Source: Diprion similis (taxonomy: Eukaryota > Arthropoda > Insecta > Hymenoptera > Diprionidae). Taken from it: a DNA stretch of 64,000 nucleotides. The stretch covers positions 6,384,001 through 6,448,000 of the forward strand of contig NC_060105.1 of the NCBI RefSeq assembly GCF_021155765.1, given 5' to 3'. The translations under genes were made by a program, and so were the position numbers. Of the stretch, positions 14,701 to 53,938 are shown in pieces (the first letter of the stretch is position 1; the number at the start of each line of letters is the position of its first letter). The notes under the pieces were generated by a model. It did not search any database. It was not told where the DNA came from and was given only the letters and a program-made list of their open reading frames with translations.

Positions 14701-15545
14701 CATGTGTTAATTTTTATAAAATATCCGTAGGATTTTGGAATATTGGGAAAAGATTGTTTCCCACTTTTGAAATGTAAAAAAAAATTTATAGTGTAAAAAA
14801 TATTTCATATTCATAACATATTTCGAGCACGTTGATATAATTTCTATATTTCTGATATGTTGCAGAAATACTTCCGTTCCATCGACTAATACACAGTGCG
14901 ATCGACTTATCAAATGAGACATTCTTGAAATATATAACGCGCGGTGCTGGTAGGGGTTGGATCGTCCGGGTGGGCCGGAGGGTAGCGGCCGCGGTGGAGG
15001 TGGTGGACATAAAATCCTTCGCACATGCCTGGTGCATTCATTAGAGGGGATGTGCGACTGCAGCCAACACATCCCTGCATCATTCCGCGGCGTGCACTTC
15101 GTGCGCAACCCCGTCCGTCGCGTATCAACCGATATCCGGATATACTCTGCCCGACGCACCCTGCCGCCTTCCAGAGCTTGCAGTCACTCATTTTACTAAG
15201 TTTATCCGCAAGTGCATCACCATGTCTACGTGCACCGAATTTCAAATTTTATTCACGATCGTTATTGCATAGAGTCGAGGCTCATGATCGCCGCTGCATG
15301 AGCAGCCCCTAGTTTCCGAATTTCATGATTATATTGTTTATTTAAATGCGGTACGGGTCGGGGTTTATTCGAGTGATATAATCAATTAATAATCATAATA
15401 ACTAGTAATTGTTGCAGTAATGCCAATGACGTCGTTGTTTCAAAACACAAATATAAGTTATGGTAGCGATATCATAACAGGAACAACAATAACGCGATAA
15501 TAAGTTATATTAATATTTAGATGATGTAAAATTGTGAAAAGAACT
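8719..15545. other. Long non-coding region upstream of fruitless
   Basis: Nearly 7 kb without a supported gene. It holds a GA microsatellite (about 9555-9603), a T run near 11915-11937, a 25-base A run (14068-14092), and two GC-rich patches (about 14150-14440 and 14940-15190) that stand out from the AT-rich surroundings and could be promoters. Open frames within it are short or follow low-complexity DNA. Being just upstream of fruitless, it is a natural place for 5' UTR exons and promoters of that gene, but no exon can be fixed by sequence alone. Confidence 0.5.
10854..10960. promoter_or_regulatory. CRE/CCAAT cluster, candidate promoter or enhancer
   Basis: Within 107 bases there is a full palindromic CRE (TGACGTCA, 10854-10861), a half CRE (TGACGT, 10955-10960) and two inverted CCAAT boxes (ATTGG at 10897-10901 and 10939-10943). 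Such spacing is typical of CREB/NF-Y promoters. It may serve a distal fruitless transcript; no transcript evidence is available here. Confidence 0.35.
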
Positions 15546-15745
15546 CGAAGATATCAAAGTGCGAAATTTTTTATAAATAAATATTCTCTATGAGAACGAT
15601 TTCTTTTAGAATTAAAAAAAATTAAATCATCACCGAAGATTCAACGCTGAAGAGGCTTTCCACTACGACGACCAGGTTGCCGCCAATTTCAAGACCGGCG
15701 TTCATCATAAAAGGGTCGCGGCTTTAATCGGCCGCCAAAAATTTC

Positions 15746-16775
15746 ATGTCCATGAATTTGAGTAAACCAGGTAACAATGCGCTCTTTGCAAACGGCGTGC
15801 GTTGCTTACTTTATTATGCATATACATGTTTACATATATTACTTTTTCGATCAAATTTTGCGTCCGGGAACGCTGGACATCAATCAACGGTTTCTTTGAT
15901 CTGCAGTGCCAAAAGTATGCTTCTAATGAAACGAAAGAGAAGACTGAAAAAAAGGAAACATTTTCCTCGATTGTCCGATTTTGCAATTGACGTTTACGTC
16001 ATATTCATATGTTCACTGAATTTCTCCTATTTACGTAAATTTCAACATATCTACGTTATATGCAATTTGTATGTTTGATGGAATTTGTGTTTGCACATGC
16101 ATTTCGCAGTTGTTGCATTATTTTCACTGGGTTGTGATATCTTGATCAAAAGATATCGTTGATAAAAAAAAAAATTGATGTCAACCTGAATATTATTTTC
16201 AACAAGTCACGTTGGAAGATAATGAAAATACATTCAGCACAACGTCGTTATATCAATGAAAAAAGTAATTGAAAGTTATCCGATAATATTCCGTAATTTG
16301 ATTTAACGATACGTCATCACGGAAGATCAACAACGAAGATCATCAAGGAAGATCAGAAGATTATGTATTTGAAATTGAATGATTAATTTATTAATACCTG
16401 AAATTGTACGAATTGAAGTTAATATGAATACCGAGTACCCACGCTATTACAATTAAATCACTCTAAATCATTAATCCCACGTTCGAACGGTGGAAATACA
16501 ACGAGAAATGATGCCAGGATGTATTTGTCAAAGAATGAAAAGAAACAAGATACAAATCGATAATGTCTCGTAAAAAGTTTCACGACTCGTTGGCAAGCAT
16601 CGGGATGTCGCGTCAAATGCGGCGTTTGAATTTGAGCGCCCTTTCCGCTGGCTGGTTCGGCAGATGCACGAAGGTCAAAAGTATTTTAAAAATAAGGCCG
16701 TAGGCATTAGTAGATTGATATGGCAGTGGATGTTAAGGGTCGGGTGGCGTTGTAATGGCAAAAAGTTTGCGAAAG
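15746..16775 (+). other. fru: fru sex-regulated 5' exon (male donor 15770, female donor 16775)
   Basis: An ATG at 15746 opens a frame that reaches a donor (CCAG/gtaaca) after 15770 in phase 1. The acceptor at 17568 (gattgtag) leads 23 bases before the BTB-exon ATG, so the join restores frame and adds 16 residues (MSMNLSKP then GLGLEIDN) before MDQQ. If this donor is skipped, the frame runs on and stops at 16076-16078, while a near-perfect donor (AAAG/gtgagt) lies after 16775. Between the two donors sit the GAAGAT repeats. This is the layout of the Drosophila fru P1 exon: male donor first, Tra-responsive repeats, then female donor, with the female frame closed. The 5' end of the exon is not known. 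The model is inferred, since no transcripts were available. Confidence 0.6.
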
Positions 16776-19700
16776 GTGAGTAATTCTCCGTATATCAACA
16801 AACCTTCGATATTTCTTAATACACAACGGGAATCGTCTCTACCGTATACACGTATTCATAACAAAAATATCTTATCTGTCTACGGCGTATAGTTGAAAAC
16901 GACGATACGAATCGTAAATTTTTCGCGAATGAGCGTACCAGAAATGCACTGGCGACAATGGCGACCAAGCTTCGCGAATAGTGACATTGTCGAAAACATT
17001 TACTCCGAAATATACGAATTAACATATTTGTGGGTGGTGTATATTGCGACGCAATTTCCACTCTAACCTCGTCGATAGGCTGACTAGTGGCATTTGAAGG
17101 AATTCGCAATCGCGTACCGCGTAAACTCGAGGTCGAGTTGCAAAAATGTTTTTGACACGTGTAGTAATTTCCTGAACCCTGAAGGGTTTTACAGTTATAT
17201 TGCAATGTGGCACGTTTGCACAGTGTGGAAGAACTAGATATTGTGGAGTGAGTGGCTATCGAGTTTTTCTAGTTTTTAGTATTGATACTACAGAGTGCAA
17301 GGGTTGACTGGATAAGTCGCTTGGTTTTATCATTTTCCTCACTCCTGTTTTTACCACCAAAGACTCGGTACACATACTAAGTACATACATAAACCACATT
17401 CTTCCTTATTTTTCTTGGACTGTGGTTTTATTTTGTGTTGTTCTTCCTCTTTAAAGAAAAAGAAAAGAAAAAAAAACCATATATAATAATAATAATAAAA
17501 CAAAGAAAGAAAAAAAAAAAGACAACGAACCAGGCTAAGGAAGTTTAGCACAGTTAGTTTGATTGTAGGGTTGGGACTGGAGATAGACAACATGGACCAA
17601 CAGTATTGCCTCCGGTGGAACAACCATCCTGCCAACCTGACGGACGTGTTAAGCTCTTTACTCGCACGCGAAGCGCTCTGCGACGTTACATTGGCCTGCG
17701 TAGGCGAAACTTTCAAAGCCCACCAAACTATATTATCGGCGTGTAGTCCGTACTTCGAGAACATATTTCTACAGAACACTCATCCGCATCCGATAATATT
17801 TCTAAAGGATGTTAACGACACAGAGATGAAGGCTTTGCTGCACTTTATGTACAAGGGCGAAGTTAATGTTAGTCAACATTTGTTACCTATGTTCCTCAAG
17901 ACTGCGGAAGCTTTGCAAATTAGGGGACTCACTGATAATAGTGTAAATAACAAAACTGAAGAAAAAAGTCCATCGCCCGAACCCGAAACCCAGACCAGCA
18001 CGAGGCATACCGAATCGCCAAATCTTCAATCCCATCCAGAAAAAAGGAAAAGGAAAATTTCTACAAATTACGATGTCTCTCTCACCGGGCCTCCAAGCGA
18101 AAGATTTTTGTCTGATTCTCAAGTAAGTCAATGTTGATGACAATTTTCTTCCTACACATTTTAATTTTTCAACTTAGTATAAAACTGATCAAAGGTTAAA
18201 TTTTACTGCGTAGGAATTAATGGATTTCAGAGAAAACCTCTGAAGAAGGTTAATAATATCAAAAGTACTATATTTATTCTGCAAGAAAATTCATCTCAGG
18301 GATGATTCTCGTAACCTTGATATTTTTCTTAATTAGATAAATTTCTTAATTTGAGTACGAAGTAACAGACGTTCAATATTTGCAGTGAAAATTCCATATG
18401 CTTGTATTCGATTCTTCATTTTGGCTCATCGATCTTGTGCAAATATGATTGACACAGTTTTCAAATCATTGAGTCACGTACGATAAAATTATCTTCTTAA
18501 GTTTAATAAAAATAATACAACAAATGAAATTACTAATGAAATTTTCTAAAAATTGACCGGTTGTTGAAAATTATGTTCTTGAATTGATTTTGATTAAATA
18601 CCAAAATAATTGTCTAACCGAGCGGCATCAAATTAGTGCACGTATTTATGCTACATCTGGCTCGCATTCAACTTCTACTTTTTGTCACATCTTCTTGAAG
18701 CTTTAATCAAGAAAAAATAAAATTCAGATGAATGTAATCTTATGTAATTTTGAATTAGCTCATTATTCATGTCTTAGTACAACACTACAGATAAGATTAG
18801 TTTAAATATCATATTCACATGTGTGAAAGTGTACTCTCTTTCATATTATTTGACTGGTATATGGATTTGAAGTGAAAATTTTCATAAATTACCGTTATAT
18901 TTTCATCTCGATATTTGATAAGAAAGAATTGATTTGTTGAAAAACTACTTGCATTTGTCGAAACAAGATGAAATGTAAAGAACAAGCTGGAACGTTCGCG
19001 CCAAGTATATGTTAAAAGTAGGAATTTTAATATCTTTGCAAACTTCTTCAAACTTGCTGTCAAGTGTAAAAAAATTTGATTATTGTAGCAAGTTTTTCAA
19101 TTTCAGACATCGTCTCAATGTAGTTACAAATCAAGTCCCCCAGTAATTCCGAAATTAAATAATACACTGGGGAGTGATGTGGAGGATGGTGGAAGACCCA
19201 TCACTCCGTCGTCTCAGCCTCAGCCTCCTATAAAACAAGAAATTGACCACCACCTATCTGAATTTCCCGAAAACATCACCCTTCCCGTAAGTAATAATAT
19301 TTGTTTGTTGCATTTTTCATTACTATCGTCAGTAAGAAGGCGTATTTTGTTAGGAGCGCTACCAATGCTAACTATGATTTTATTGTCTTCCTCAAGACTG
19401 TAAATCTTTTCGAACAACTGACGATGTTCGAGCAGCTTGATATTCGAATTTCTTATAAATCGAAATTGTTTTTTCATTTTACCATTCTTCCTTGCTATGA
19501 ACTCAATAACTCATATTCAGCATTACAACGTATTATCATTAAAAAATATTGTTATACTTGATATAATAGTGCTTGGCACCTCAACTTTACAGCTGGATTT
19601 TCCTGCCATTGTTTCATGTATTCCATTGTGTGATACCTCAAACTTAAATCCAGCTCTGTCGCGTTGTTAAAATGATCAATCTCAATATTGAACAGGTTAT

Positions 19701-22700
19701 TTGATTTTTTAATAAACCTTTGGAGCAAGCATTTACATGTAACGTGCACGTCGGCACAAGTTTCCTGTTAGTGAATATCATTAACATAATTTTGCACTGA
19801 CATTCACCAGGTATTATAATAAATTCGTGCAATAATTCGTATTGCACAGTTACGGCGAAGAAACCTGAACACGGTTGCGTGAGATTCAGGTTGCAAAATT
19901 ATTATTCGTCATTTGTTAGATTTTCACCATATGATACAGCAAGTTCGTTCTTATTGACGAGCTTTTTCATTAAATTACACACTACGAATCGAATAATTTT
20001 GTTTATACTAGATCCAAGATCATGTAAAGTTTTGTTTTCAAAATTTTCTACATATTATAGATGAGCTAGTACCTCTTCTCCTTGCAAGAGTAAAGTTTAA
20101 AGCATTACCAAACGAATCTCTTAGAATTAAAGAGCAGTTGGGTAACCCTCCGCTTATTGACTCGCAATTTTTTAAAACCATTTTATTTGTCAACAATTTA
20201 CATTCAGCTCTTTTCCAACGCCATACAAATCCGTTTATATGGCCATTTTATGTAAGACTGAGAAAAGTACATTACATTAATTGATCGGTAAGTGAATCGA
20301 GAAGTGAAAATATGAGTATTCTAAAGCGAGTGCACTGACAGTGTATTCACAAATGTCCACTCTCTATTCAGATACTTTCTATAGATAGTAAATATTGTAA
20401 GTGCAATATATTATACTTAATCAATTACGAAAAATCTTAGCATTTTCATGGTAAAACTATTGCAGATGACCCAAGTATGTTGGATTAAGCGGTCGGGCTT
20501 ATTCGTATATCCTCTACACTGCAAGGAAATTATTATTACATTGAAACATCTAGACATAGATACGATTCTATGATTTTAGCTAATAGGAGATTCTTCATGG
20601 GTGCGCAGAACATAAATGTATGTTCAAATGTCACAATGTTACTCCAAGGAAAGAACTTATCTTTTAGACATGTACTTATAGTTTCGATTGCTTTTTTTTT
20701 TTTTTTTTCTAATCAATCTTCATCATTCTATTCAAGGTGCGTTGCTTGTTTTTTAAAAATACATGTTTTCGATACTGCTTCCTCAACAAAAATCAGTTGA
20801 TGCAAAAATAATCTGGCCGCTAATTGTTGATTATTTCCTTGGTCGAATAAAACATTTGAAGGAAGGGATATGTGGAGTTGAGAAAAGGAAACAAAAAAGA
20901 ACTTTTTTCTTTGGAAAAAAAAAAAAAATTTGAAATCATTAGATGTGTTTATTAAACACATGTCCTTTCCTTCTCTGTTGACAGACTAATGTGGCGCGGG
21001 AGGTTCAAAGTGATGGGAAGAGTGAAAAAACAATGGATGATCAGAACACGCAGGTTGATTCTAGCAATCGTAACTCTCTTCCAAAGCATGTCTCGCGCAA
21101 AACGGCCATCATGGCTGGAGGCTACCTTTCAGTCAGAGCGCCAGATGTCCTATTCAGTTACTACGGAGAGACAGACAAATTATGTATCACGGAAAATTGT
21201 GTATCACCCCATGAACAATCTTATGCGATTAAGTCTCATTACACGGTACAAGCTGAGCCTGGGCAATCTCATACTTTCGCTTCACAAGTTAGCCCAGTCA
21301 GCACTAAATCGCAGGATGATCTTAATTCTTTTATCAATGTTGGTTCGGATATCCTGCGACGGGAACTGTCAGCTCCTCAGTTAAGTCCAAGCGAATTGTT
21401 ATCTCGTTCTCATTTAGGGAAAAGAATAGGCAAATTCAGGCCAGGCTGGTTGGAAATGTTTAATTGGTTACGGTACGATGAGAAATCTCATATAATGTAT
21501 TGCAAGTATTGCAGAAAGTGGAGCGAAACTATTCCAGAAATTCGTACATCCTTCGCAGCTGGGAATGGAAATTTTAGGCTCGAGATAGTCAATCATCACG
21601 ACAAATGTAAAGCACATAATTTATGCATTGCTAAAGAGGCTGAATCAAAAAAATACTTTTATCGACACATGAAATAAGCAGCTGAATGTGTCAATGACAC
21701 AATTTTCCACATATCCATTAACATTCCTACCTGCAACACGAGCAGCTTCATTATGTTAAAAGGATATTATTTGTTATGTTGTGTGAAACGTATTTTTAAC
21801 ACATTTTTTTATGTAAACTCCTCTCAAAGACACACCGTTACTACATTATGTAGATATCATTATGAAATTGGTTGGATCTTCGTAATTTTACTGGAGCGTC
21901 CCCTGTAGCTAAAATATATTGTGATAATATTTTTCACGGTTGCAATGTGTAATCGAGCTTGACTTCTTGTACATTTAAATACTTTTTACTAGTATCTGAA
22001 CCAGAGTACATTGGTCAGTTCGATACATGTGCTCGAGCAATAGAAATAATTACTTGAATATTAAATCTACTTTTGGAGCATTTTCTAATATTAATTCCCA
22101 GTGTACAGTAAAAGTTACTGTGAATATTACGCAAAGGTGGTTATACCAAACACTTGCGGTGATTCCATGCTTCGCGTAAACCACCGAAGATCAATTCTCA
22201 TTCTAAATACCAATAGATCGTTTAATACGTATAATAATCATGAGACAATAAGAAATATTTTTATGTGGGCAGGTTATTAAAGTTGTTATTATATTCTTTG
22301 AATTGTTGAAATTATCGTTAATCTATAACAATGTCACGATTATGTTAATAATTAGTACGACATTTTTGTATACAAAAATTTAATTTCTTATTCATTACTA
22401 TTATTAGACAATATCATTATCAACATGTACTTATTGTTCACTGGATAAAAAACACTTTAATAATTGAATTATTATTATTATAATACAGATTTTCGGCAAC
22501 CAAAAGCAAGAATTTTTTTTTCTATCCACAGTAAATTTGCCATGTCTCATCAAAAGCATAATGCTGAATATAAGAAATGAGTATTATACATTGGCTGAAA
22601 AATGATTGGCATCAATTCCTCCATCGGCAAAGCTCGTTATACACAGTCCTAATAACGACAGTTGCAAGAAAATTGAAGCTGTTTATATACACTAAATAAT

Positions 22701-25700
22701 AACAGCTATTTTCGATGTAACACTAACTATGACACTAAATTGCCCCATTGTCATGCACAGGGACATCCTGTAAGTCTCTTAGGAGAGGATGGAGGGCCAA
22801 CCACAGGTACCCTCAGTGACGGCGTACCAGGAACAGAACCATCTGAACACCACAACCCACATGAAATGCTTGACGGACTTGATGGTAAGATCTGAACTCA
22901 TTAAAATGACATTTTAACACGATCTAACATATTTCCTACGCTGTTAATAAAAAGCAAATCCCTTTCTCAGAGACACTCAATGAGTAAAATATTTGATAAC
23001 ACACATTTTACTCGGTAGTAGTCGAATTAATATTACTCGAGTGAAATTGACAGAAACTCGTGTGTGCAACTTTGATGAAACGTTGTGAAAGAACTTTAGA
23101 ACGTTAGATTTTATGCTTTATTTATACCTATTATGAAATTTAACAACTCAATTGGCTCTCAAAAATCACATCTTATTTCTATAACGGCTTTCTCATATTG
23201 TGTTGATTATCTGATTTTTATCATGTCTATTTACTCTGACAGAATTTATATGTACAAGACTGGATTTTATTTGAATATTTGTTACATCTTTTATTCAGAA
23301 GTTGGCTGCGATGGGAAATATGTTGGATGAAAAGAAATCGTGGGAATACTGTGCATGCTTACTAAAATTAAACTTCCAAATAATATGATATAACGTAAAA
23401 GTATCCCTCGATTTCAAATGACGTGAGTAGCCAAATGTATATTATAGGATCCAGGTTATTATGTAAACTTTAGTATTGTGGTGATGGTATTGTGCATTTG
23501 CTGATTCAGTGTATTAGAATTATGCAAGTGTGTTATCATGACAGCACCTAACAATTTTCGTTTGTTGAAACTATAAGCAAATGGACCATACTTGCGAAAT
23601 TTCGATATAGCGTGTGGGTTGCTAAGTAAGTTTGATGATTCTGTTGATTACTGATGTGTCGAATACGAGTACGAGGTATTCTTCGAAGGTATCAAACCAC
23701 TCCAATTTCAAGCGTTCAAAGAGATCCGGCGCTATGGAAGGAGGCAAGCAAGAATATAACATGTTTACTAGACGTCTGTATCTCAAAGTTATACGTTTCT
23801 TTCTCATCGAAGGGTTATGTAAGTTTCTTCATATTTTGATAGGAAGCTTTCAAATAAATCTAAATATCAAGCTGATATAAAGAATTACAGTACTGTTGAT
23901 TATTACAACCGACAAACAATGGTTTTTTTTTTATATCTCACTTTGGTATTTAGGATTTTGAATCTACGAAAGTTGCGTCTGTCAGCATATGTCGATACAC
24001 ATACAATACTTCCTTGAATAGAATACTATCATTGACTATATTGTTGTTTGATGAAAATAACTTCTGGCGCTTGGTCGTAATCGGGACGTTGAAAATGTTG
24101 CGATGTGTTATAGATCCTTTGAAACAACCTCCTGTACCCGAAGACATACGAATGTGTGCGTGTCTATGCAGTAGGTTTGTGTGAGGTGTGCGTGAATGTA
24201 TGTATGCAGAGATCAATTGCTGACTTGATACTTCGGTATAAATTGGGGTTTCCGGTGCATGTCTGTATTCTACTCTCTTGCATTCCTTACCGTGTCTACA
24301 AAAAAGTACCTAGCGAACTCGACCATCATTCTCATATCTTATATGCTGTTCATTTGCTGTTGCATGGTGTTACCATTTGACACTGTCCATTTCAAGGATG
24401 AAATGCGTTTTTTAAAATGCGAGTGAAGAAAAAAAAAAGATAACAAAAGCCGAACGATACAAAAAAAAAATATATATATATATATTCACTGTCGTGATGC
24501 GTTTGCGTTCTATTTAGCAACAGTCTTGACAATTGTAGTGTGTGAAATAAGTAGAAGAGCCGAAGATGAAATGACGTCGTCAGTTGGCAATTTACGATGT
24601 TTGAGAAACGTAAGCATAAAAGTATTGCTATTTAGTATTCTTTTTTAATTTACCTTTACAAGTAGGTGTGTGCTTATATAATATATTTGCTAAAGTAGGT
24701 TCGGTATGTTGTTTCAATTGATTAAATGTATTTCTATACCTGAAAGAAATGATGATAATAATAATAAATAATTGTAGAGCCTGGACTTTGTTAGATTCAA
24801 TTGTAATGATATATTAAAGATTCAAAAGGGATCTTGTATTCCAGGATCGACAGGAACTAGCGAAAAAGAAAAGGACGTAAAATATGACAATTATAAAATA
24901 GACACACACCTTGGTTTGGAATGTTGTAAGATCTGTGGAAAAACTGTGGCCAACGTTAAAAAGCACATGAAATCACATTTCCCTGACAAATATCAGTGTC
25001 ACATATGTCTGATATCATTGACCAGATCCGACAATCTAAAGAGACATATTAAGCTGAAACATGGAATTCGAGAGGGAAATCATCCCTCGCCGTTCATGCC
25101 TTTGGATACGAAACATTTTTTAGGAAAAGATAACGCGGACTATCTCACCTAAATACAAGGCATCAATACCTAATCGCTAAAAGAAAAACAGAACGAAACA
25201 AAATAAAAATAATATATATATATATATATATTTATATATAATTTAAAAACTCACGTACACGATATTATATTCCCTTCCCAGAATCCAAAAGACCCTCCCC
25301 TCCCTCAGCCCCTCCCTCTCATAACTAATATATATTTGCCATTGTTGTAATTGCCATTTTAGTAATTTATTTAGGGAAACAGTATTATACAAAAAGGTTG
25401 TGAAAAACGTCGAAGACTGAATAAGAATTTAGAGTCATTAAGATTATGGCTCAATTAAGTCATTGTAACTAGTCTCAAGCCCATGGGCTAATTGTAAACA
25501 GGTTTTTAGGCTTTCTTGTGGTGCCTTTTAGTACAAGACTAATCAATATGTAATCTTTAATACATATAATTCATAACAGTACATACCTAGATAAATGCAT
25601 GTCTGATCAAGTACGTTCCGTCGCAAATCTTTTCTATTTAGATGGTCATTTTTACCCTCGCTTTTCTCTATTTACAGATTCGACATTTTTTACTCCTCCA

Positions 25701-28033
25701 AGCATTGAAAGTGTGCCGATATCGGATATAGAGAAAGTAAATGTGTCTGATTTTTATGAAAAACTACCACATACATATACGAGTAAATGTAAAATATGTG
25801 GGAGAGTCGTATCGAATCTACGGAATCATTATTTGACGCATAATCCAGGAAACTATGTCTGCCCAATGTGTGGCTGTCATAGGACAAGATTAGATAATCT
25901 AAAGGATCACATTAAACGTAAACATCCCAATATACAAATAGTTAGCAGCAACACATTTTTTGGCTGAATTAATTCTCACATATTCGAAAACATTTTTCAA
26001 AGATTATTACAAATTCGGAGAATTTTTCTGTGCAACACAAGTAATACATTTCCTCATTTGCTGTTCTGCAATCTTTCTGTATTTTTTTTCATTCTTATTA
26101 TACGCGAATACTAGGACATTGTCACACAACTATACGTTTGTCCTGAGCACCGCTATCTTTAAAACAATATTCATAGAATCCAAGAAAAATATTCGTGGTA
26201 TTTCGATATCACTGACAGGGATCGGAGAAAAATTTATACGATTAAAAAGTTAACTAGAAAGGTATTTCTTAACACTGACATTGGCAGAATGAACGTCGAA
26301 TCGTACTCACGAGACATAGGTCCTAGTATTCCTAATAATCCTAAAGTATGTTTTAATATTATAGATAATTAAGCTATGTGTGTGACTAAATTTAATTTAA
26401 GGAATATTAACGTTAATTGAGAATCGCTACTCGATAAGAAGGTCAAGGATATCCGATAAGTAAGTGAATGATTGATGGAAGTGAATGTGAGTGGTGAGAT
26501 TGTAAAGATTATGTGTTGCCAAGGGCTAAGGGGGATCTCTCCTTCTCTCTCTCTCTCTGTTCCAGTGTTGGCCAGTGATGTCTCACTGAAGAGAGAGGAG
26601 GGGATTTCCCCTCTAACTCAACCAACGGAGCTCCGGCTTTCCTGCTGGATGCCTCCTCCCTCGCGACCCCGGGATACATGGGTAATGAGAGGGCCAGAGG
26701 CAACTAACGGGTATAACATGTTCATTCCAATACCCGGTGAATCCAGTCCTCAATTATACAGCTGTCGGCAGTGCGGCAAATCAGTCAGTAATCGTTGGCA
26801 CCACATTCGATCCCATCAATCGCAGAATTGCCAGTGTCCATTTTGCAATACTGTATTCACTCGAAGTGACAATCTTAAGGCACACATTAGAAGTAAACAT
26901 TCGTCATTTATGTAGAATAAATAACTCGCACATTAATTATTTGACAAATTTTTCGCATAAAGCGTTATTCTAGCTTCATAAGTAATACAAGTATGTCCTT
27001 TATATCTTGATGCTTGTTTGCGTATTAACCAAAGGCGTATGCACTAATATCAGCCCATCTATAACACTGTTCTAGTGATCTTTACGCAACATATTAGGAA
27101 GTCACCAATTTCAATTATACTTTCTGTGCGGTTAAACGCTATTTCGCCCACCCTGAATGTAGATGAATACTTATACTTGGCGTCGATGAGCGTAGTCTTA
27201 CCAAATGCAAACTCATAGGTTCAAGTTAAGAAATCCCGCATTCAACAGGTACCTCTCTTGTCCCCCATTAACTTTCAGCTAGTATTTTTTCGAGGTTCTC
27301 ACATTTCAACCCATTATGTATGTTTTGTACATATTTCAATGGACATGAACTGAAAATAGTAAAAACGAGTTCGACACAGGGCAGCATATTTTTTTGCTAT
27401 TATGTGCACCTAATAGATCTAATATTATATTTCATGTAGGAGCTATTTCAATCTACAATGTAGTAGCTTGTATTCAACGAAAGAATCTCCATTACGTATT
27501 AATCATTATTGTACCCCTCATGTGCCATACAGATTACGTAGTCCGATAAGTATTTAACTCTTTGCTTTTGAAGCCGTAATTTATATTTAGCTATTAATGC
27601 TTAGATGATAGAATATTATAATGTAAATTGTAATATTTTTGTACTTGCTATTTGTGAAATAAATGATAATTTTACTTTATATAACAGGTATGTCTTTGTT
27701 GGTGGGGTGAAAGGTCGGGGATGGGAGGGGGCGGTAAAGGACGGAAGGGTTTGATAAAAACTGAATTACGTGTTCCCAACAGATAGTTATTACAAGCCGA
27801 TCTATCTGGTTTTAAATCAAATGAAATTAACAATCATCATTTTATAACAATGTAATCTCCCTTCTATCTTTCTATTCTATCTCTTCCCTATCTGTCGCTC
27901 TCACAAGTAATTACATGCAACTGACACTTCACGAAAATCTAATTAATCTAACAAACGGATCCTACTTTAACAAAGGTACTCTTATCGTTCCCAATTTTGT
28001 GTATATATATACCTATACATACATGTACGCGTG

Positions 28034-28072
<39 letters not shown>

Positions 28073-31000
28073 TTATGTATGTATATATGCATACATTTAT
28101 GTACATGAATATAAACTGTTACCATTCAAAATGATCGAGATGTCAACTACCGAGATTTAGTGTGCTGTCATGAATAATAAGTATTGCCTCAGGCTACGAT
28201 ACCACAAGTAATTAGTGGCTAAACTAACTTATGTATCAGGCGTACATTAATCAGGACAATTGATCTAGTTTAATTGACATTACATTTATGCGGCAGTGCT
28301 GGACATGTAAATTCATTGACATCATCGTTATTGCGAACGATTTTACATACTATTTTACATACTATTTTGTACAAGCCATGTTATTGCTATGTATATTATC
28401 CATAGATTTGAACGAGTTTCAATCTCCATGTTGACGATAATTTTTCCACAGTCGGACCATTGATGTCACATAGGGAATAATTTTAGAAAACTTTGTTGAA
28501 TGCAACAGTGTACTGTCGGTCGTTCTTTTGTCTGTACATATCTGTGTTGTTTTCCATTATAACATATCGTTAATGGAGAGGTAACAGTTGGCTCGTCAGC
28601 ATAAATGAGTAATAGACTAGATCAATGCAGTATAAGAAAAAACAGAAAATCTAGCGAGCATAGGTGGGGAAGGTGCAATTGAGTGACTTGTCTTGTGTTG
28701 ATGTTGCAGGTTCAAAAGCCTGGCACATGCGGCTGACGTTTGACCGGGTGCCAGGCGGCTGCAACCTTCACAGGTGCAAGCTGTGCGGCAAGGTGGTGAC
28801 GCACATCAGGAACCACTACCACGTCCACTTCCCTGGCAGGTTTGAGTGCCCTCTCTGTCGTGCCACGTATACTCGTAGTGACAATTTGCGCACACATTTT
28901 AAATTTAAACATCCCGAAGCGAGAAAGATTGATCTTAATGATTTCATGGCTGGTTCCTTGGCACTAGCTGCCAACAATGATACTATGAACACTCTTTCCT
29001 AGGCGCTCTAGAAGAAAAGAGTGTTTCATAATTTTGAACACCAAATCTATAGGTTCTACGCTTATAAAAAAAATAGTAAAAAAAAAAAAAAAACAAAATT
29101 AATTGTTGAGGTAAGATCTAAGGACAATGTATAGGACAAGGAGGGCAGCCTTAGTTTTGGTCCAAAAATCATGGCAATTGAAAACTATACATAATTGGGA
29201 GCAAATGTGGTGCCAATTCCTCCCTTAGTTGCTGCTGAGTAGCGTTGGCAAGTTGGCAGCCAGGAAATAAATTATTAATATTAAATAAAATAACGGAAAA
29301 TGATGAAAAAAAAATAATTATAAAAAATGAAGACGTATAAAGTAATTCATTCGATTTGCAGGGTGAGTCATCTAGTTGTTGAAAGTTTTTAGTTGAATTT
29401 CATATTAGATTATGAAACAATAATTTCCATTCAATAGCAATATTAAAAATACATATAATACACCCTAAATGTAAAGACGGAAAAAAAGAAATTACTAATC
29501 CACAACGAAAATTCTGTCCTACATGTCGCCAATTTTGATATGTATAAAAAAAAAAAAAAACGGAAAGAAAAAAAAATGAAAATAGTATAAAATAACAAAT
29601 ATGTCTGTTAAGAAAACTAATTCTTTTTTCTCTAATATGAACTTTGACTACAAAACGTTACTTGTTACAAAACACCTAAAGTCTATATAATGATAAAACT
29701 GCACACCGCAAACTATAATGCAGCAAATAGTGGAAATTATGAGACATTCCACGATTGGGACTTAAATCTGTAGGCAAGAAAAAAAAAATTATTATTATTG
29801 TATTGGATGATTTATAGTACTATATTTTATACTTTATATAATCTACTGTTATATTCTACATTGGTTGGAGATAGTAACATTAAAACACAATTTATCCAAG
29901 GGGTGGTTAGATATTCACAACATCATTGCACATTGATATTTAATTGGTTGAGGTGCAATCTTATTCTTCCCGTATTTTTCTTTTTTTTTTCTTTTTTTTT
30001 CACATCAAAACACGTATGATATAACGACCTATATTGTAACGATGACAAATACACAGTCAAATAGCTATTCAAAGGGCCACGTTGAAAATGGTATGTAACT
30101 ATGTATCTTACCTTCGGTGTGTTTCTCTTTGCTCATTTTTTTTTTTCTGTTTTCTTTCACGATTATTCTTTCATGTTCTCTAAAATAGCACTTTGCATAG
30201 TTATGGCTACACACATACCTATAATTTAATATATATCTAGAATATTAATATATTATGCAGATTATTAAGTATAATAATATATTGATAATTTATTTAATAT
30301 TGTTTTACTGTTTTATGATTTTATATATTCTATTACTGTTTGATGAGAGCATGTATACAGCTACACATATTAATTTATTAACAGTGAAGAAATGTCAAGG
30401 TGCACCGTAGGCCTACCCCTGGCAGACCAGCCGCTGGTTTTTTTTATTATTGTTTCAAAGATACGATCGAATACAAGGCTGTAGATGTTCTACAGTAGCT
30501 CATACTCCAGCTTACCAAATATTCGCCGGGTGTTTAGCTAAAATGAATTTATTATTATTGTTATTATATTATTTTTTTTCTGTTTTTTTTTCTCGGAATA
30601 ACGAAGAATTAACCACTTCTTCTGATCCATGTTGTTTGTTTGATATTTTTTCTCACGAGGAAAGAAAAACTAATAAGAAAAAACAATGATTATGTTTCAT
30701 ACTACATACATGTCACTAAGATTCTTTGTCAGCACTCGTTAGTGCTATCTGAAGTTCATAACTTTTTCTCAACAAAAAGTTACTTGAGATAGTTCGCTCG
30801 AACGATCCATAAGTCATTTTCCCGTAATGTTAACTTCAAAGGTTTAAATTCAAAAGAAATTGATGTTTTTCAAAATACTCGGCACAGATTTCACATAACA
30901 AACAGCTTGCACTATCGCAGGCTCCTTGGCTGTTATTGAAACTTCTTATTGATTAAAATTACTACTACATATAGGTATTTATATATTTACAACTGCGTGG

Positions 31001-40280: not shown

Positions 40281-43200
40281 TTAGAACACATTCATCATAA
40301 AAATTGAAAATACCACTACAGCATTAGTTAAAATTGGTGAATTAGCTGATCCCCAGCCACATTCGAGATCAGTTTTGAGTGCTTCCAAGAGGGAGATATT
40401 ATTTTTATTCAGGCAAAAAGTCTCACGAAGGTCGTCATCCCAACCATTATCCCAGCAATTATATTTGTCATCTTCGTCTGGTTCAGAAATATGATCAGTA
40501 TATGTGCCGCATTCATCTTCGTAATATTGCCTTTGCTTACGTTGCCACATCTCAATCCATCTGATAATAGCATTCAGTAAAGTGTAAATTGTATCGGGCA
40601 AGACAATGTAAAATTCATGTATTTTCTAATCACTCACCCAATTTCACAATCGCAATTCAGATAACTTCCAGATAATCTAAGCTTTGTGAGGAATGTTCTT
40701 CCTGGTATACCTGGCTTGTGGCCAGACGATGGGTTTCCGATCGATCCAATGTGATTATTACGTATATCAATTGATATGTTTCTTACACTCCCTGCATTAG
40801 TGAATAATTCACGAGGGACCATTTTGACGCTTGTATTACGTAGGGTAAAATGTAGTTGTGAGTTTCGAATACCCTGAAAAAAAATTAGGCTATTGCACAA
40901 TGAATAAAAGAAAAAAAAATTAATAGCAACAGAAATAGTATGATGGCTACAAATGACAGGACTATATTACTCGATCAATATGAGACACTCACCTGAAGTA
41001 TATCCTTGTGTATCGATGTTAGAGCTCTGCCACTAAAAGTCATATTGTACAGCTTGGCCGGGAATGTGCCTTTCATTTCCTTCTCCAAGTTAATGTCGTG
41101 ATCAACCTAGAATTCCAAAAGTATACCTTTACTGTTTTATATCTATAATTAAAATTACTTTTTGTAATCAGTTTTAGTTATTTATTCATTATTACAAGCT
41201 CTGTATTATAGTATTGTTGCTCACCTCAACATGTAAACTCCGAAGACCATGATTGTAGTTTAATATGTTAGGCAAATTAAAATTCTTCACCTTCTTAAAC
41301 ACTGTTATGTGTAAGTTACGAAGTTTGGATGCTTTACACAATGCACCTGCCTACAAAAAATAAATTCAGTTGTGAATGTAGATTTGGTAAGATTCGCTGC
41401 ATTGTTTGGCTTGAAATAAATAACGAACTTACTTCAAACACATCGAGAGGTAGTCTTCGTATTTCAAGCTCTTCAAGGCTATCAGCGAGACCCAAAAAAC
41501 TTGTATTCGTAACGCTAGTGATAGGATTTCCAGCAAGATTTAGAGACCTAAGCTCAGGAAGTGTGTGGGTTATTAGTGGGACAGTAGACAGTTCGTTGTA
41601 ACTAAGATCCAAGTGGCGGAGCGACGTCATGTTGGCAGCCATATCTGACTGTATAGATGAAAGTTTATTATGTGCCAAATACAGTGTCCTCAAACGACGA
41701 AGCGGCAGCTCTGGAACCTGAGCATCATTGATTATATTCACAGCACCTAATCTAGTCTTCAAGACACACCACAAGCAATTACCTATTTAATATAATAATT
41801 TTAGGACTTTTTCTGAGAACACTAAATAAAAAACGAAGATTTTTAAACAAAACTCAAAATTAGTGGAAGGAATAACAGCAATTTTGTAATATCTTTGCTT
41901 GTGGATGCTGGAACACTTCATATTCCTGTAAGCAATCAACATCTGTAAAATGATGTAGTCCTGAACTTACCATGTACAGGGACATGTTACTAAGTCCAAG
42001 GGTCAATAATGTGTCTTCTAAGCCATGAAAACTTTTACCATGAGATTCCAAAATTATTTCTTTATTATGACTCAGATCGAGATAAGACAGCATGGCCAAT
42101 TCTGAAAATACTCCATCATCAAGCCTAACGAGCCTGTTGTATGATAAATCCAACCAAGTCATGTCCTGCGAATATTAAACAAAATGTCTAAACACAGCAA
42201 ATTGGCATGACTAATGTCGTGATAGATATTTCACTTACCCTAAATCTGAATATAGCATCAGTATTGTGCAATCCAGCTAATACGTTCCATGACGTATCGA
42301 GTTTTGACAAGGATGCAGCAGCAGACGGAGACATACTCTTCATTGGGAGTCGCATGAATTGATTGTGAGACAAATCTAAACTCTCTAGGTTTCCTTCGGT
42401 GAATAAATTATCTGGCAGTGCTCGCAATTTGTTGTGTGACAAATCTACGATACGTAATTTCTTTAGGGATCGAAACGACTCCACAGGAATTTCAGTGATA
42501 TCATTCCAAGCCATCAGTAGAATCTAAATAAGATATGTTGCGGAATTATTTTATCACGTCATAAAACATCTCTATTTGATTGACAAATATTGGTGAATTT
42601 TACATTGAGTGGACTTTATTAGAAAAGAGTTACTTCAGATATATTTCTTTGCATTCCAAACCTGCAGGTTTCTTGTATTTTTGAAGCAGTCGAAGTTTAT
42701 GTCCATCAAGTCATTAAAATTTAAATCCAACCATTGAAGATGTGGCATATTTCCAAAGACATGCTGAGTAATGTTCAGTAATTTGTTATGACTCAGGTAT
42801 AGATGAGTGAGTGAAAATTCAACGGGTCTGAAATAGTACCTCATTATGTCAGAGATGTTGTTGTGACTCAAATCGAGAACTTTTATGTTCGATTGTATAA
42901 TACCTCCGACTGCGAAAAAAAGCACGATTTTGATTTCATGGGTATGTAATTATTCTTTCATACATAATTATACTTACTATTACTATGTGGTGCGAAAGTC
43001 GTACTGTTGATCCACAGTTTTTGAATTTTATTGTGGCTAGCGTTCACTTTGAATGACGATAGCGTCCCTACCTGATCAAAAGACATGAAGTCTAGTTCAT
43101 GTAACTGATTGTAAGCCAAATCCATTAATTCAAGATCAGGCAAATTCTGAGAAAAAGAGAAATCTTATTACGGACAACATTTACAATGAAAATTATTGAT

Positions 43201-45685
43201 GAATCTAATATCACAAATAGAATACCTGAAATGCTTCATCTGTTATATCCTTAATTTTATTACCCCGAAGATTGATGTATTTCAATCGGTTCATATTCAT
43301 GAATGCTCGTCGTTCGATTCTATCAATGACATTGTCTTGTAAATTCAGAATTGTCAGGGAAGGTAGATCTACAAAGCTGTTACTGCCGATGTACTTGATT
43401 TCATTGAACGCCAAGTTTATTTCATCAAGGATAGAATGAATGTCACCCTGAAAAAAAGGAACTGCAAGTTTACCCAACTGAGAGAAATCACTATTCAGTC
43501 ACAAACTACATTAACAATCCGAAAGATTTTCTAATGATGAAAATTGGTCTTTGAAGTTTTAAATAGTTTTTAAAAATAATAATTTTTTCTTTTACCTGAA
43601 ATGTACCCTTTTGTACGCTTTCGATTTTATTATCTTGCAAATCAATACGTCGGATTCTTTTCAAGAAATGAAAAGCTGTTTCAGGCATGTTTTGTATTTT
43701 ATTATTACTGAAATCAAGGTACTGCAGGTTCGTCAAAGATTTCAGTGGGTTGGCTGGAAGATTTGTAACCGACGAAGAGAGGCCACGCGAAATTTGAAGC
43801 GTTAAAAGCGAATGCCCTACCTGTGAAAATAAAACGATACATTGTGAAGGAAACCACATGAGTTGGTGGTTTGAATGAATGTTTTTACCCACTTCGGCGA
43901 ATGCGTCATCTTCAATAGTCGAAATTGAGTTTTCCGAAAAATCGAGATATTTGATTCCTCGGACATGCTTAAACGCATGATTTTTGATTGTATCCAAATT
44001 ACTTTGAATTATTCTGAGCTCCTTTAAATCCATTCCAAAGTCTAAAAAGTCTTCTGGTGACAGTGTAGATTTAGGCATTCGGGACAAAGATATGAAGCGT
44101 AGATTTCTCATTTCCTTCATGCTTTGTAAAGATATAATGCGATTTTTCTTCCCACTTAAATCCAAGTTGTATAATGAGTATTGAAAGTCGTTGAAATCTT
44201 CTCCTGAGAGACAGATGAGAATTAATTGTTAAAGATTCAGTAACATTTTGAATAAAGTTTGAAAGGATATTGGATCTTACCTTGCGTGAGAGCATCAACT
44301 TTGTTTTCCCTGAACAAAAAGGTTCTCAGATAGTCAAAATCTCTGAACAAGTGAACAGGAAGTTCCGTAATGTTGTTTCCAGTTAAATCAAGTAATTCTA
44401 AAGATGATTCTAAGCCCATAAAGACAGGACTTGATACCTCCATCAGATCACAATCGCCTAAGTAGAGTTCACGCATTTTTGAATCTTTGAATGCTCCTTC
44501 CTATAAGATGTAAGAAAGAATTAAGAAAAACTAAATCATATATAACAAATTATTTCATAAGTGAAAAGAATATATACCTGTATGATAGTGAGTGGATTAC
44601 CGTCAAGGTACGTTTTGTTAACTCTACGAAAATGCTGAAATGCGTCTGGTAGAAGGATATTAATTTGATTGTAATCTAAACGTAGTTCATCCAAAGACAT
44701 TTGCATCCCACGAATCTCATTTTCAATCTGTGGATTTAACATTCTCGATATTCTATTGTGACTAAGATCCAAGTATCGCAAGTGTTTTAAGGTAGAGAGC
44801 TGTGCATACGGCACATTATTCAGTTGATTATCATTCAAATAAAGGTGTGTGAGAAAATCAATTCCATCTCTGAACACCGTCGCATCAATTTCTAACAGGC
44901 TGTTTCCATGAAGATCTAAAACTTCTAAGGCCGACAGGCCACTGAATGCATTCGCTGGAAGTCTGTCCACGAAATTTTTGCCAAGCCTAAGGGTTTGAAG
45001 CGACGTGTTGAGACCTCGCCAATTATCAGGTGTTATTTCAGATATTCGATTGCCTACAAAATTAGATAATATTTGATAATCTTGGGAAATTAGGAAATTA
45101 ATTATGCTAGTTAATTTAATGCCAAACGTTTCACTTATTGGAATTATATGAATTGTGACTGATTACCTGTTAAATCCAGAAGTCGTAATCTTTGCAAATG
45201 TCTAAAAGATCTACTAGGTACATGAATTAGGTGATTATACGGCAACTCTAACTCCCATAAAGATCTCTCAAGTCCCAAAAATGCATCATCTGGTATATCT
45301 GACAAAAGGTTGTGCTTGATCTGAAGTTTGTAAAGACCTGAAATATGAATAAACCGTAATGAAACTATAATATCTTGCTGGAATAATATCTTCAATACTA
45401 GTTGGGTTACACTGATTTTGTATACATACCCGTATGAATTAAAAATTGTGGCTGCAAAAAGTGCAATCCATTATTTTCTAGTTTGAGTATAAATACTTTT
45501 GAAGAGTTAATGGGCTGAGGGATTCGAGGCATCGGCACGTTGTGACAAGATACAATGCCTAGATCAGGAATGGCTTTGGAACAGGTGCAGAGCGGGTTGA
45601 AAAAACACGGCGGATATTGCACCTGGATTTCATGCATTCTGACCATCGCAGACCAGAACATCAAAACTAGTGTAACGATCAGCAT
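40281..45685 (-). CDS. chp: Chaoptin, leucine-rich-repeat photoreceptor adhesion protein
   Basis: Sixteen coding exons on the minus strand: 45685-45430, 45337-45167, 45053-44578, 44500-44281, 44203-43893, 43820-43596, 43447-43226, 43146-42978, 42909-42662, 42523-42239, 42165-41971, 41717-41433, 41350-41225, 41106-40993, 40873-40638 and 40560-40281. Phases agree throughout and give 1272 residues, close to Drosophila Chaoptin (about 1300). The start is the Met of a signal peptide (MLIVTLVLMFWSAMV). A cysteine cap (PPCFFNPLCTC) follows, then dozens of LRRs (LxxLDLSxNxI), a C-terminal LRR cap (LNCDCEIGWIEMWQR) and a hydrophobic tail (ILTNAVVVFSIFMMNVF) preceded by small residues, as needed for a GPI anchor. 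Chaoptin is a homophilic adhesion protein of photoreceptor microvilli. An upstream acceptor at 45719 suggests a separate 5' UTR exon. Confidence 0.95.
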
Positions 45686-45718
45686 GATATAGCCGAGTTT
45701 CACAAACGTTCCCAAATT

Positions 45719-46915
45719 CTGGAAAAACATACCTATAATGATTAGAATGGCTATGCAATTTACGTAATGATTTTCAACTCTCAAGTAACTCAAGCTATTA
45801 AGTGAAATCGATTATTAACAAACTTTTGTTTGTACAATCCGGTTTATTTCTCTTCAAAATTTTTACACAATTTATTTTAATCCTGGGCTACATATATTAA
45901 TATTCCAGTTATTGGACTTTTATTACTGTATAATTGTATTACTGCGCAGTATAATTATGCACTTGGACTTGGTGAACAATTATCAAAACTTCTGACAAGT
46001 ATGAAATTACCATTCTTTATGTACACTGTAGTTGGGATAGAAGAGGGACGACTGACTCTGGAACAAACTGGAATGTGGGCCATTGGAGAATGTTTCACTT
46101 ACAGGGCTTGAGGATTAGGAGCAGTTTTTGTGCTTCCCTTTACACGATTAGAACCGTGATGTCAAGCTAATGTGAGTAATACACCATTACGACCGATATC
46201 AAATCAGCTAATTCGAGTCACATTCATTATATTTCAATACGCAGATGCATTTGAGAAAATAGTTTACAAAATATTATTCATAAAAATGGATGACCAACTA
46301 CTTTACTTAAAAGAAATCCTCAGAGTGAAAAGAAAAAGTAAATTCACCTCTGAATGGCACATTGGAATCAGGTTTTAAAGACTGGTACAAATAGCTGAGA
46401 GCACTGATCCCATTTCTACGTACCACATAAGCCCGGGGTAAGCTCAAGGCTTTACATACCCCAATAATTGTATTCCTAACACAAACTTGCCCTACAAACA
46501 TGACCCAGATATTTGCCTACATTCTTTCAATGAAATTTTTTGAAAATTCCTCAAGCCGTGTACTAAGCACATGAAGTTTTAGAGAGTATAATGCACAGCT
46601 CTGGCAAAACTTTTTCGACTTATTTTACTGAGACAGTTTTAAATAATTTGTACAGGTAAGTAATGGGTGGAGCTGGAATTAATTTCACTAAAATATTTTA
46701 TTTTACTTATTGATACTACAGCATACATATGACTAAGCAGTTGAATTTAATTGTACAATTAGTAAAGAGAAACGTTAAATTAAATTAACATTTCCGTCCT
46801 TATAAAGTAAATGAGAAACACGTAGTGGTGTTACATTAACATGGTTTTCAACGTTTTTCCTTATCAAAAATGTTTCCAATCATGAGTCGGGTATGACGAA
46901 TGAAATATTTACTGT
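45719..46915. other. Intergenic region upstream of chaoptin
   Basis: About 1.2 kb between the chaoptin 5' end and the MED4 stop. It probably holds chaoptin 5' UTR and promoter sequence. No convincing coding exon is seen. Confidence 0.45.
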
Positions 46916-51177: not shown

Positions 51178-53938
51178 CTAGGATTCCTTCTTCAATGCAA
51201 GTTGCAGCAACGTTTTCCGCATGGCTATTACTAGTCTTTCCAATTCTTTTGCTTTCATTTTCAAAATTGCGTTAGCTTTTTCCAAATCGTTTGCTTTCTT
51301 CATCATTTCTGCTTCTTTGACTTTTTTGTTGATTCTAGACTTTCTCGAAGCTTTGTTATTTTTTTCGCGTAATTCTCTGTAGCTATAATCTGATGTCTGT
51401 GAATCTGAGTCGCTGTCTGTGTAATTTCCACTTTCTTGATCTACATCTTTAGATATCCTTCGTTTTTTTATTGGCGGTTTTGTAGCTTTTAAACTAATCT
51501 TGAGTGGTGGTACAACAGGTTCAGTTTTTGCTTTGACTTGAACGGATTTATTTTCCTTGCTCGACTTGCGTTTGTTAGTATTCACAACTTGCGATGGCTC
51601 GACAATTTCTAATGTGGTGGTTTTTGATTTGTTCATGAGTGATTGTCCGCTTTCCTAAAGTAACAAACAAAAAGTAAAAGCAATAAGTGTACAGTTCATT
51701 TTAGACACAAATGATATTATTGAATGTAATAAAGCCAAAATATCGAAACATTATAGTTTGCAATGATAATAGGTATAATGAAAATAACTTACTTCGCAAA
51801 CATATGACAACAGATCGAATGATTCGAATTCAAGATCTGTTGTTAATAAACCATCTGCCAGTAATTGCGTTTCTTGTTCTTGAACAGTGGAATTAGCAGA
51901 AGTTGATTGATAACTGTCTAAGGTTGTAGGATCATAGTTAGATTGATTAATGTTTACTAAATCGTTGCGTGAAAAGTCGTTAACATTTGTGGTGATTGGA
52001 AACCAGTTATCGAAGTTTTCTCCTATCATTTGAAAGCTTGAATCTGGTATGCTTTTGTTTATATTTGGGATAAACTTTGTACTAGTTGCAGCTTGCTGTT
52101 CATCTGTATTCGTTGCTGGCGTCAGATCCATCCAAACATTGGATATGTCCATTGTGGTATTAAATTGGTCTTGCCCTAAGGGCTGGGACCGTTCGAAGGA
52201 CATCCCTATAGATTCGATGTTATTTTCTACAGTCCAGCTGTCACCTATTCCCGTGCTTTCTCCAAATTCTGATTTTATATTAGATAAATTGTAGTAATTA
52301 TCTTTCACACCTGCAATGAAAGACGCAGACTGTGATTATCTTCATCTTATTTCTTCTATTGTCGCTTAATTAATCAATGAGGAATATCGTCAACTGACCT
52401 GAAATCTTCGTCGTAATATCTTCACCTGTAGGATAATCGCGTTGTCCTTGCGGAGAACGTGATATATTGGACCGGCTTATACTTTGCGGGTCCACGCACC
52501 AATCTCTTAGGTCCTGAAATTCTTCTCTCCAAAACGAGGGGGTAGAAACCATGGGAGTACTGCCTTTGGAATTTTTTAGGAGGGGCCAGGGTTCGAGTAG
52601 CAATTCTGATTCCATCACTGGGCTCAGTAATGGATAAGTTTCCTGTTTCAAACATGAATTTTCCATCTTTTCCAAGGAGCATCGGGATTTCTTTACTCCG
52701 CTGGATATCACGCCACGAATAGCAGGTGGTTTCTTTAGCAACGAATTCCATTGTTGTGGTAACTAAAAGTATTCAAATTGCAAATATTTATTAAAACCGT
52801 AGTTACTTGATGTGAAAGTAATTTCCCTATAATTTTTAAAATATTTTTTTATACTTTCCAATCTGACCGCAATAATTTTGGATTACCAATCAAATGAAAC
52901 TGTTCAATATGACCAAACACATTTTACTTAAAAGTATTTATATTATAAACAGGTTTTATATTTTACTTCTCTACTTTTTACTAGACGTAACACATGTAAC
53001 CAACGGTTGAAAAAATTTATAATATTATTCATAGAATTGGAAAATAATATTATCACGAACTCTGACATTCCATTAATGGTTATGCTAACTGTTTCTGCAA
53101 GAACTTACTGAAAATTCACCTGCTTCCTCTAATGAAATGTTGCTGCCTTCTAGTTGCTCGCGAATAGGAGGGATTCTGAAAGCCTGTAATAATACATATT
53201 TCTAGATGATTATCAACGTATTTCTTATCTCATCTCGTGATACAACCGAAGTAAAAACTTGGTTTTTTAGTAGAAATGTAGAACCTACTTCCGTTAACGG
53301 TATAATAAGAATGATTCATCACTGTACGTAAATGCTAATTCGGAATATTATACAAGGTACCAACCACGCCCTGTCATTAAAAACCTATTACAACCATAAA
53401 CGGCTTATATAATCCTTCGATAGAAAAATACTATGACAAATGTTATACGGACGTAAGAACGTGGTTAGTATATATGTATTCTGGTATATACATCTCGGTA
53501 TGTTAAATAGATATAATAGAAAAAAATTAGATAAAACAATAAAACAGTTATTTCTAAATATTTCAGCAAGAAATCTGTAGTTGATTAGTCATGTACGAGG
53601 AAGCGTTATGTAACAACATAACGTTCCAATTATGTTAAATATCTTACAATATGGTAAAGAATTAACATTACTTACCCTCCTTTGTGATGGGAAATTCTTA
53701 GTTACAGCCTTGTAACAGGGCTTACAGGCTCTGTCGCGGAGATTGGATAAGAGATTGCCGTTTTTTTAACTATTTTATCACAACTTTCGGCTTCACGGCC
53801 GGTCGAATTTTCTCCTCTCACCGTTACTGAAAACGATGATGACACCGTGCGGACCGAAGGCCTTCGTATCAAATACACCACGTCACGAGGCTCCAAAGCC
53901 TTTTGATATCTTCTATTTATCTCTTGCGTCAGATTCAA
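51178..53938 (-). CDS. bZIP transcription factor of unassigned family
   Basis: The well-supported coding exons are 53183-53109, 52762-52399, 52310-51793 and 51654-51178, with matching phases. The C-terminal exon holds a lysine-rich region, an acidic serine stretch (YTDSDSDSQTSDYS) and a bZIP: basic part RELREKNNKASRKSRINKK, then a zipper with leucines at heptad spacing (LEKANAILKMKAKELERLVIAM). The middle part is Ser/Thr/Asn/Gln-rich and acidic, like an activation domain. The N terminus is unsure: the exon ending at 53726 with donor CCT/gtaagc opens at ATG 53938 and joins in frame (548 residues in all), but a stronger-looking donor after 53676 has no ATG in frame, which would move the start to 52664. 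I do not recognise the orthologue. A nuclear DNA-binding dimer is inferred from the bZIP. Confidence 0.75.

Follow-up and report, generated by a model that had tools for sequence, protein, structure and literature searches.

Bertossa 2009 and Verhulst 2010 are reportedly the primary papers behind the hymenopteran response element for Tra/Fem. A Tra/Fem motif has been proposed for Hymenoptera, with occurrences described in tra, dsx, and fru of Nasonia and fem, dsx, and fru of Apis (PMC3045327), and the consensus of the NvdsxRE element is given as (T/G)GAAGAT(T/A) (via PMC3045327 and PMC10057164). In Csd immunoprecipitation, parts of fem RNA that carry GAAGAU sites are enriched, and the authors of that work consider that the binding of Csd may not by itself be what drives splicing in females (PMC10057164). 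In the honeybee, fem RNAi partly moves fruP1 to its male form, and the female part of the transcript consists of exon 3, which is retained and for which a product of 34 residues is predicted (PMC12722765). In Diptera, housefly fru has an extended S exon as well as a female exon that is separate from it (PMC3632534), and in mosquitoes an f exon is joined to the short m exon in female fru transcripts (PMC7806257). The female donors of fru are stronger than the male donors in Drosophila and Aedes, the Anopheles female donor is suboptimal, and flies have P2–P4 located between P1 and the BTB exon (PMC3572092).

Here we describe a GAAGAT array at the fru locus of Diprion similis, found in a 64,000-nucleotide stretch of DNA that was analyzed as a whole (the window). 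We consider it likely that this array is an exonic splicing enhancer of the Tra(Fem)/Tra2 type in a female-specific stretch of the fru P1 transcript, and it could lie in female-specific RNA under an extended-exon or a separate-exon layout alike.

Table 1. Features of the fru locus discussed in the text, in window coordinates
Feature	Position	Strand	Basis or remark
Upstream GAAGAT	15547..15552	+	before the predicted P1 start-codon exon
Upstream GAAGAT	15635..15640	+	just 5' of possible acceptor 15676
Putative P1 start codon with the 3' end of its exon (MNLSKP plus one base)	15752..15770	+	honeybee fruP1 start-codon site homology
Candidate male-type donor CAG/GTAACA	15771..15776	+	rank 73 of 3587 GT sites
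Expected female-specific RNA interval	15771..16775	+	layout inferred from published fru genes
Single GAAGAT between array and candidate donor 15771	16215..16220	+	sole (T/G)GAAGAT(T/A) fit among seven
GAAGAT array (4 copies)	16322..16361	+	copies start at 16322, 16335, 16348, 16356
Candidate female donor AAG/GTGAGT	16776..16781	+	rank 2 of 3587 GT sites; 415 bases 3' of array
fru BTB coding part (MDQQYC...)	17592..18122	+	ATG 17592, donor 18123
fru C2H2 zinc-finger exons, four, alternative	24778-25149, 25554-25964, 26472-26912, 28664-28999	+	domain matches

The fruitless locus and its predicted P1 start

Judged from its domains, the locus is fruitless: a Fru-type BTB exon is followed on the same strand by alternative C2H2 exons. 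The open reading frame from ATG 17592 contains a BTB domain (E 8.3e-25), which over 117 columns is 81% identical to Drosophila Fru, while identity to Lola, Ttk, and Broad is 51-54% (approximate fly sequences). The earlier note had named the gene fru and had placed the array upstream of the BTB exon, and both statements hold, given the BTB identity, the four C2H2 exons downstream, and the position of the array 5' of the BTB start codon. The array is in the sense orientation, on the + strand. A pattern search for relatives of the fru BTB sequence had none of its 7 stretches confirmed in the viral_contigs set and none of 38 in the genome_contigs set. Within the locus, the open stretch 20982-21674 gives a Pfam match (PF25431, E 5.4e-10) to a zinc finger of the C17orf113 type; it may be one more alternative exon of fru or else an insertion unrelated to the gene. 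Among the neighboring coding stretches, one of each kind being scanned, leucine-rich repeats at 40281-45811 and a bZIP domain at 51178-52335 are found on the − strand, a MAP65/ASE1 family match at 57766-58452 on the + strand, and a chitin-binding CBM_14 domain at 1408-1746 on the + strand, 5' of fru.

The P1 start codon is suggested by a comparison with honeybee fru, for which a guide is located 22 bp after the P1 start codon (PMC12722765). The reverse complement of this guide with its PAM agrees with window positions 15767-15782 at all but one of 15 specified bases, in a comparison that uses the first 13 guide bases (over the full guide 13/20 match, and the last 7 do not). The guide cut would fall 21 bases from ATG 15752, fitting the published distance. 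At one mismatch, ~0.005 matches are expected with uniform bases; at up to three mismatches the site is the sole match in the window, yet 26 of 100 shuffles gave at least one. The second honeybee guide, 232 bp further on, has no window match at up to three mismatches, and a literature text search for MNLSKP returned no match. We regard 15752-15770 as a putative homologue of the honeybee fruP1 start-codon site; the exon carrying it perhaps begins at 15676.

The GAAGAT array in the window and in the genome

The earlier note had reported four GAAGAT copies in 40 bases and three more within the preceding 780, and all seven are present at these places on the + strand. The core of the hymenopteran element is clustered in sense (4 in 40 bases, 7 in 815 bases), and no GAAGAT occurs on the − strand of 15301-16775. 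Over the whole window and both strands, GAAGAT is mildly enriched (57 copies versus 44 ± 6 in shuffles, 4/100 of which reach 57), and the unusual part is the clustering: at least four non-overlapping copies within 40 bases are reached by 8 of 4081 + strand hexamers, of which all but GAAGAT are AT-rich or simple-repeat words, and Markov simulations (order 2, 4, and 5; 5 Mb each, one strand) never produced three GAAGAT in 40 bases. An isolated copy and the first array copy also have a flank in common, ATCAC[C/G]GAAGAT (15629-15645 and 16316-16332), which reads ATCACC at 15635 and ATCACG in the array and may be the mark of an element longer than the hexamer. As to RNA openness, the array 40-mer exceeds the greater part of the interval, yet equal openness is found in 20% of 40-mers, and no signal emerges.

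The copies do not, however, amount to independent events, because three of them belong to a tandem repeat with a 13-nt unit (16322-16355, 2.6 copies), with the fourth (16356) outside its register. If the five GAAGAT in 15771-16775 are taken as independent, the Poisson P is ~1e-4; if the array is taken as one event, there are 2 copies versus 0.45 expected (P ~0.07). What had been described as far exceeding chance is thus rare as a cluster and overstated as a count. The array could instead be a chance noncoding minisatellite of 13 nt, in which a unit that happened to hold GAAGAT was duplicated without any binding function. We think this unlikely. In its favor are the tandem repeat, the flanks that depart from the published consensus, the weak enrichment when the array is counted once, and the window's other short tandem repeats with comparable scores (25 rows). 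Against it, the unit holds, in sense, the very hexamer proposed for fru regulation, the fourth copy does not keep the register and the fifth (16215) is separate, and among runs of this type in the genome list none packs four copies as tightly.

That list comes from scans of the 269-Mb assembly (60 contigs), with the reversed pattern as control. A search for three GAAGAT spaced by gaps of 0-15 gives 122 places versus 59 in the control, and among the 100 matches listed of these 122, many are GAAGATGAAGAT runs resembling acidic coding sequence. Because runs like GAAGATGAAGATGAAGAT, acidic coding by appearance, are frequent in the genome, the statement on compactness is valid for GAAGATH only, in which each core is followed by A, C, or T (H). 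For this pattern, triples with gaps of 0-30 are found at 63 places versus 29 in the control; by eye, 24 of the 63 are assigned to a single family of dispersed repeats, and the remaining 39 reduce to 28 loci when merged at 1 kb (30 when merging overlaps only). Four GAAGATH in 41 bases occur at fru alone among the 63 places, the most compact such run, followed by spans of 54 and 56 bases that are each T- or AT-rich. In addition, GAAGATCA pairs within 30 bases occur at 13 places versus 4 in the control, 2 of the 13 being inside the fru array. The chance that one of the 28 loci falls in sense within 15752-17568 is ~1e-4, for a place picked after seeing the array. Among 20 other cluster loci, chosen from the 100 listed of 122, none had an open frame over the cluster that was tra- or dsx-like by eye.

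Two other origins were considered and ruled out. The array is not an acidic coding repeat, as 15771-16775 is closed in all three + frames (12-20 stops in each). Nor is it a dispersed repeat, as the search, within its sensitivity, shows 15600-17591 to be single copy, save for an A-rich part (~17438-17520) with matches at four other places. The dispersed family of 24 places mentioned above carries three GAAGAT in ~56 bases, for example at C2:275115-275170 and C14:190768-190823.

Candidate splice sites and a predicted female-specific enhancer

Splice sites were ranked with a rough PWM built on approximate frequencies, not with MaxEnt. Candidate donors flank the array, the male one at 15771 and the female one, the strongest donor nearby, at 16776, and the interval between these donors is expected to be female-specific RNA, either as a whole, with 16776 as an alternative donor, or in part, as a cassette with candidate acceptors at 15907 or 16110. 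From ATG 15752, the frame ends after 108 residues if 15771-16775 is kept, after 12 with the cassette from 15907, and after 23 with that from 16110. When 15770 is spliced to 17569, the same frame opens into the BTB domain. The acceptor at 17569 is in frame and scores poorly, and that at 17457 scores better and is out of frame, giving a 36-residue frame and then a stop, so the male junction and the start of the BTB exon are uncertain.

Under the reading that we favor, Tra (Fem) and Tra2 would bind the GAAGAU repeats in females, and the bound repeats would promote use of the sequence ending at donor 16776; because of the stop codons between the P1 start codon and the BTB exon, no FruM would be made. 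In males, where Tra/Fem is absent, the stretch would be skipped and ATG 15752 joined in frame to the BTB exon, yielding FruM. We infer that 15771 and 16776 are sex-specific sites in use and that the stretch is female-specific RNA. Arguing for an enhancer are the genome-wide rarity of the array, the identity of the gene, and the match to the honeybee start-codon site; the strength of donor 16776 relative to 15771, as in the fru genes of Drosophila and Aedes (PMC3572092); the closed frames of 15771-16775 together with the in-frame male junction to 17569; and, from published work, the GAAGAT clusters of Nasonia and Apis fru (PMC3045327), the effect of fem RNAi (PMC12722765), and the Csd immunoprecipitation (PMC10057164). 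Counted against it are the lack of any consensus fit among the four array copies, the tandem repeat, the missing triple at dsx, the failure to find tra/fem, the weak acceptor 17569, and the caution of the PMC10057164 authors about whether Csd binding by itself drives splicing in females.

Donor 16776 also bears on a different layout, in which the array lies upstream of or inside the first exon of a later promoter (P2/P3), 16776 is the non-sex-specific donor of that exon, and GAAGAT is an ordinary purine-rich enhancer or inert. The position would suit such an exon, with just 816 bases separating 16776 from the BTB start codon, a 67-codon open stretch that terminates at this donor, and P2-P4 of flies between P1 and the BTB exon (PMC3572092). 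We nevertheless find this layout quite improbable: no start site is evident on reading the sequence, and donor 16776 scores 12.3 and the runner-up in the stretch from the array to the BTB exon 6.7 (17248), so that an array-bearing female exon most simply uses 16776. That the repeats bind Tra in female P1 RNA and act on translation instead of splicing is barely credible, for although donor 16776 seems strong enough unaided, early stops already remove FruM in females and fem RNAi alters the splicing of honeybee fruP1 (PMC12722765).

Relation to known response elements

As a predicted splicing enhancer, the array probably belongs to a kind that has already been described. The earlier note had assigned it to the GAAGAW type of Tra/Fem element, which stands insofar as clustered GAAGAT is the published motif, reported in Nasonia and Apis fru (PMC3045327), but not for the full 8-nt consensus: (T/G)GAAGAT(T/A) fits 0/4 array copies, 1/7 copies in 15547-16361, and 19/57 in the window. 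The array probably works like the hymenopteran response element, as a variant with divergent flanks and not a strict member, and from its letters and position we judge it to be real, well placed, and probably functional.

A second suggestion, that one array copy may bridge to the dipteran element, finds no support and is rejected. The dipteran 13-nt dsxRE/fruRE, TC(T/A)(T/A)CAATCAACA, has no exact copy in the window, and sites with up to three mismatches number 121 versus 126 expected, with no enrichment. The array 13-mer ending in GATCAACA agrees at 8 of 13 dipteran positions, which 1567 of 63988 + strand positions equal or better.

In the same genome, dsx was assigned through its DM and dimer domains and extends over at least C13:2535084-2557557. 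The genome-wide GAAGATH scan (gaps 0-30) found no tight triple at this gene. The 1000 bases from the dsx dimer exon on (C13:2557401-2558400) hold one sense GAAGAT (positions 480-485), which is apparently intronic and is followed by C, as in the fru array. A dsx female exon was searched for and not found, and tra/fem was not found in the assembly, with models that had no match in any control genome either. One might speculate that the element shifted in this lineage to a GAAGATC type with 13-nt spacing and was tandem-amplified in fru and not in dsx, that fru would be a privileged Tra/Fem target, and that the 13-nt period would be the footprint of one Tra-Tra2-SR unit, of the same length as the unrelated dipteran repeat; we hold this extension to be doubtful.

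The known picture of sex-specific fru splicing would be unchanged even if the array were confirmed. Confirmation would provide a compact target for RNA recognition by Tra/Fem and Tra2 outside flies, where the site has so far been a proposed motif, and the candidate male start, female donor, and array, all within ~1.0 kb, fit one minigene.

Compared with the fru female exon of Diptera (Drosophila, housefly), the predicted arrangement is alike in having repeats in female-specific fru RNA before a stronger female donor, with the same proposed job, and unlike in that the array sequence differs from the dipteran repeats. Compared with NvdsxRE, the flanks diverge and a 13-nt register is present; the GAAGAT core, its clustering, its sense orientation, and its place in the expected female-specific part of fru agree. 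Compared with the honeybee switch between fruP1 exon 2 and female exon 3 (PMC12722765), the putative female stretch here could either be a cassette or extend the start-codon exon, and the last 7 of 20 guide bases are unmatched, whereas the start-codon site matches in sequence and a predicted female stretch with early stops likewise precedes the BTB exon.
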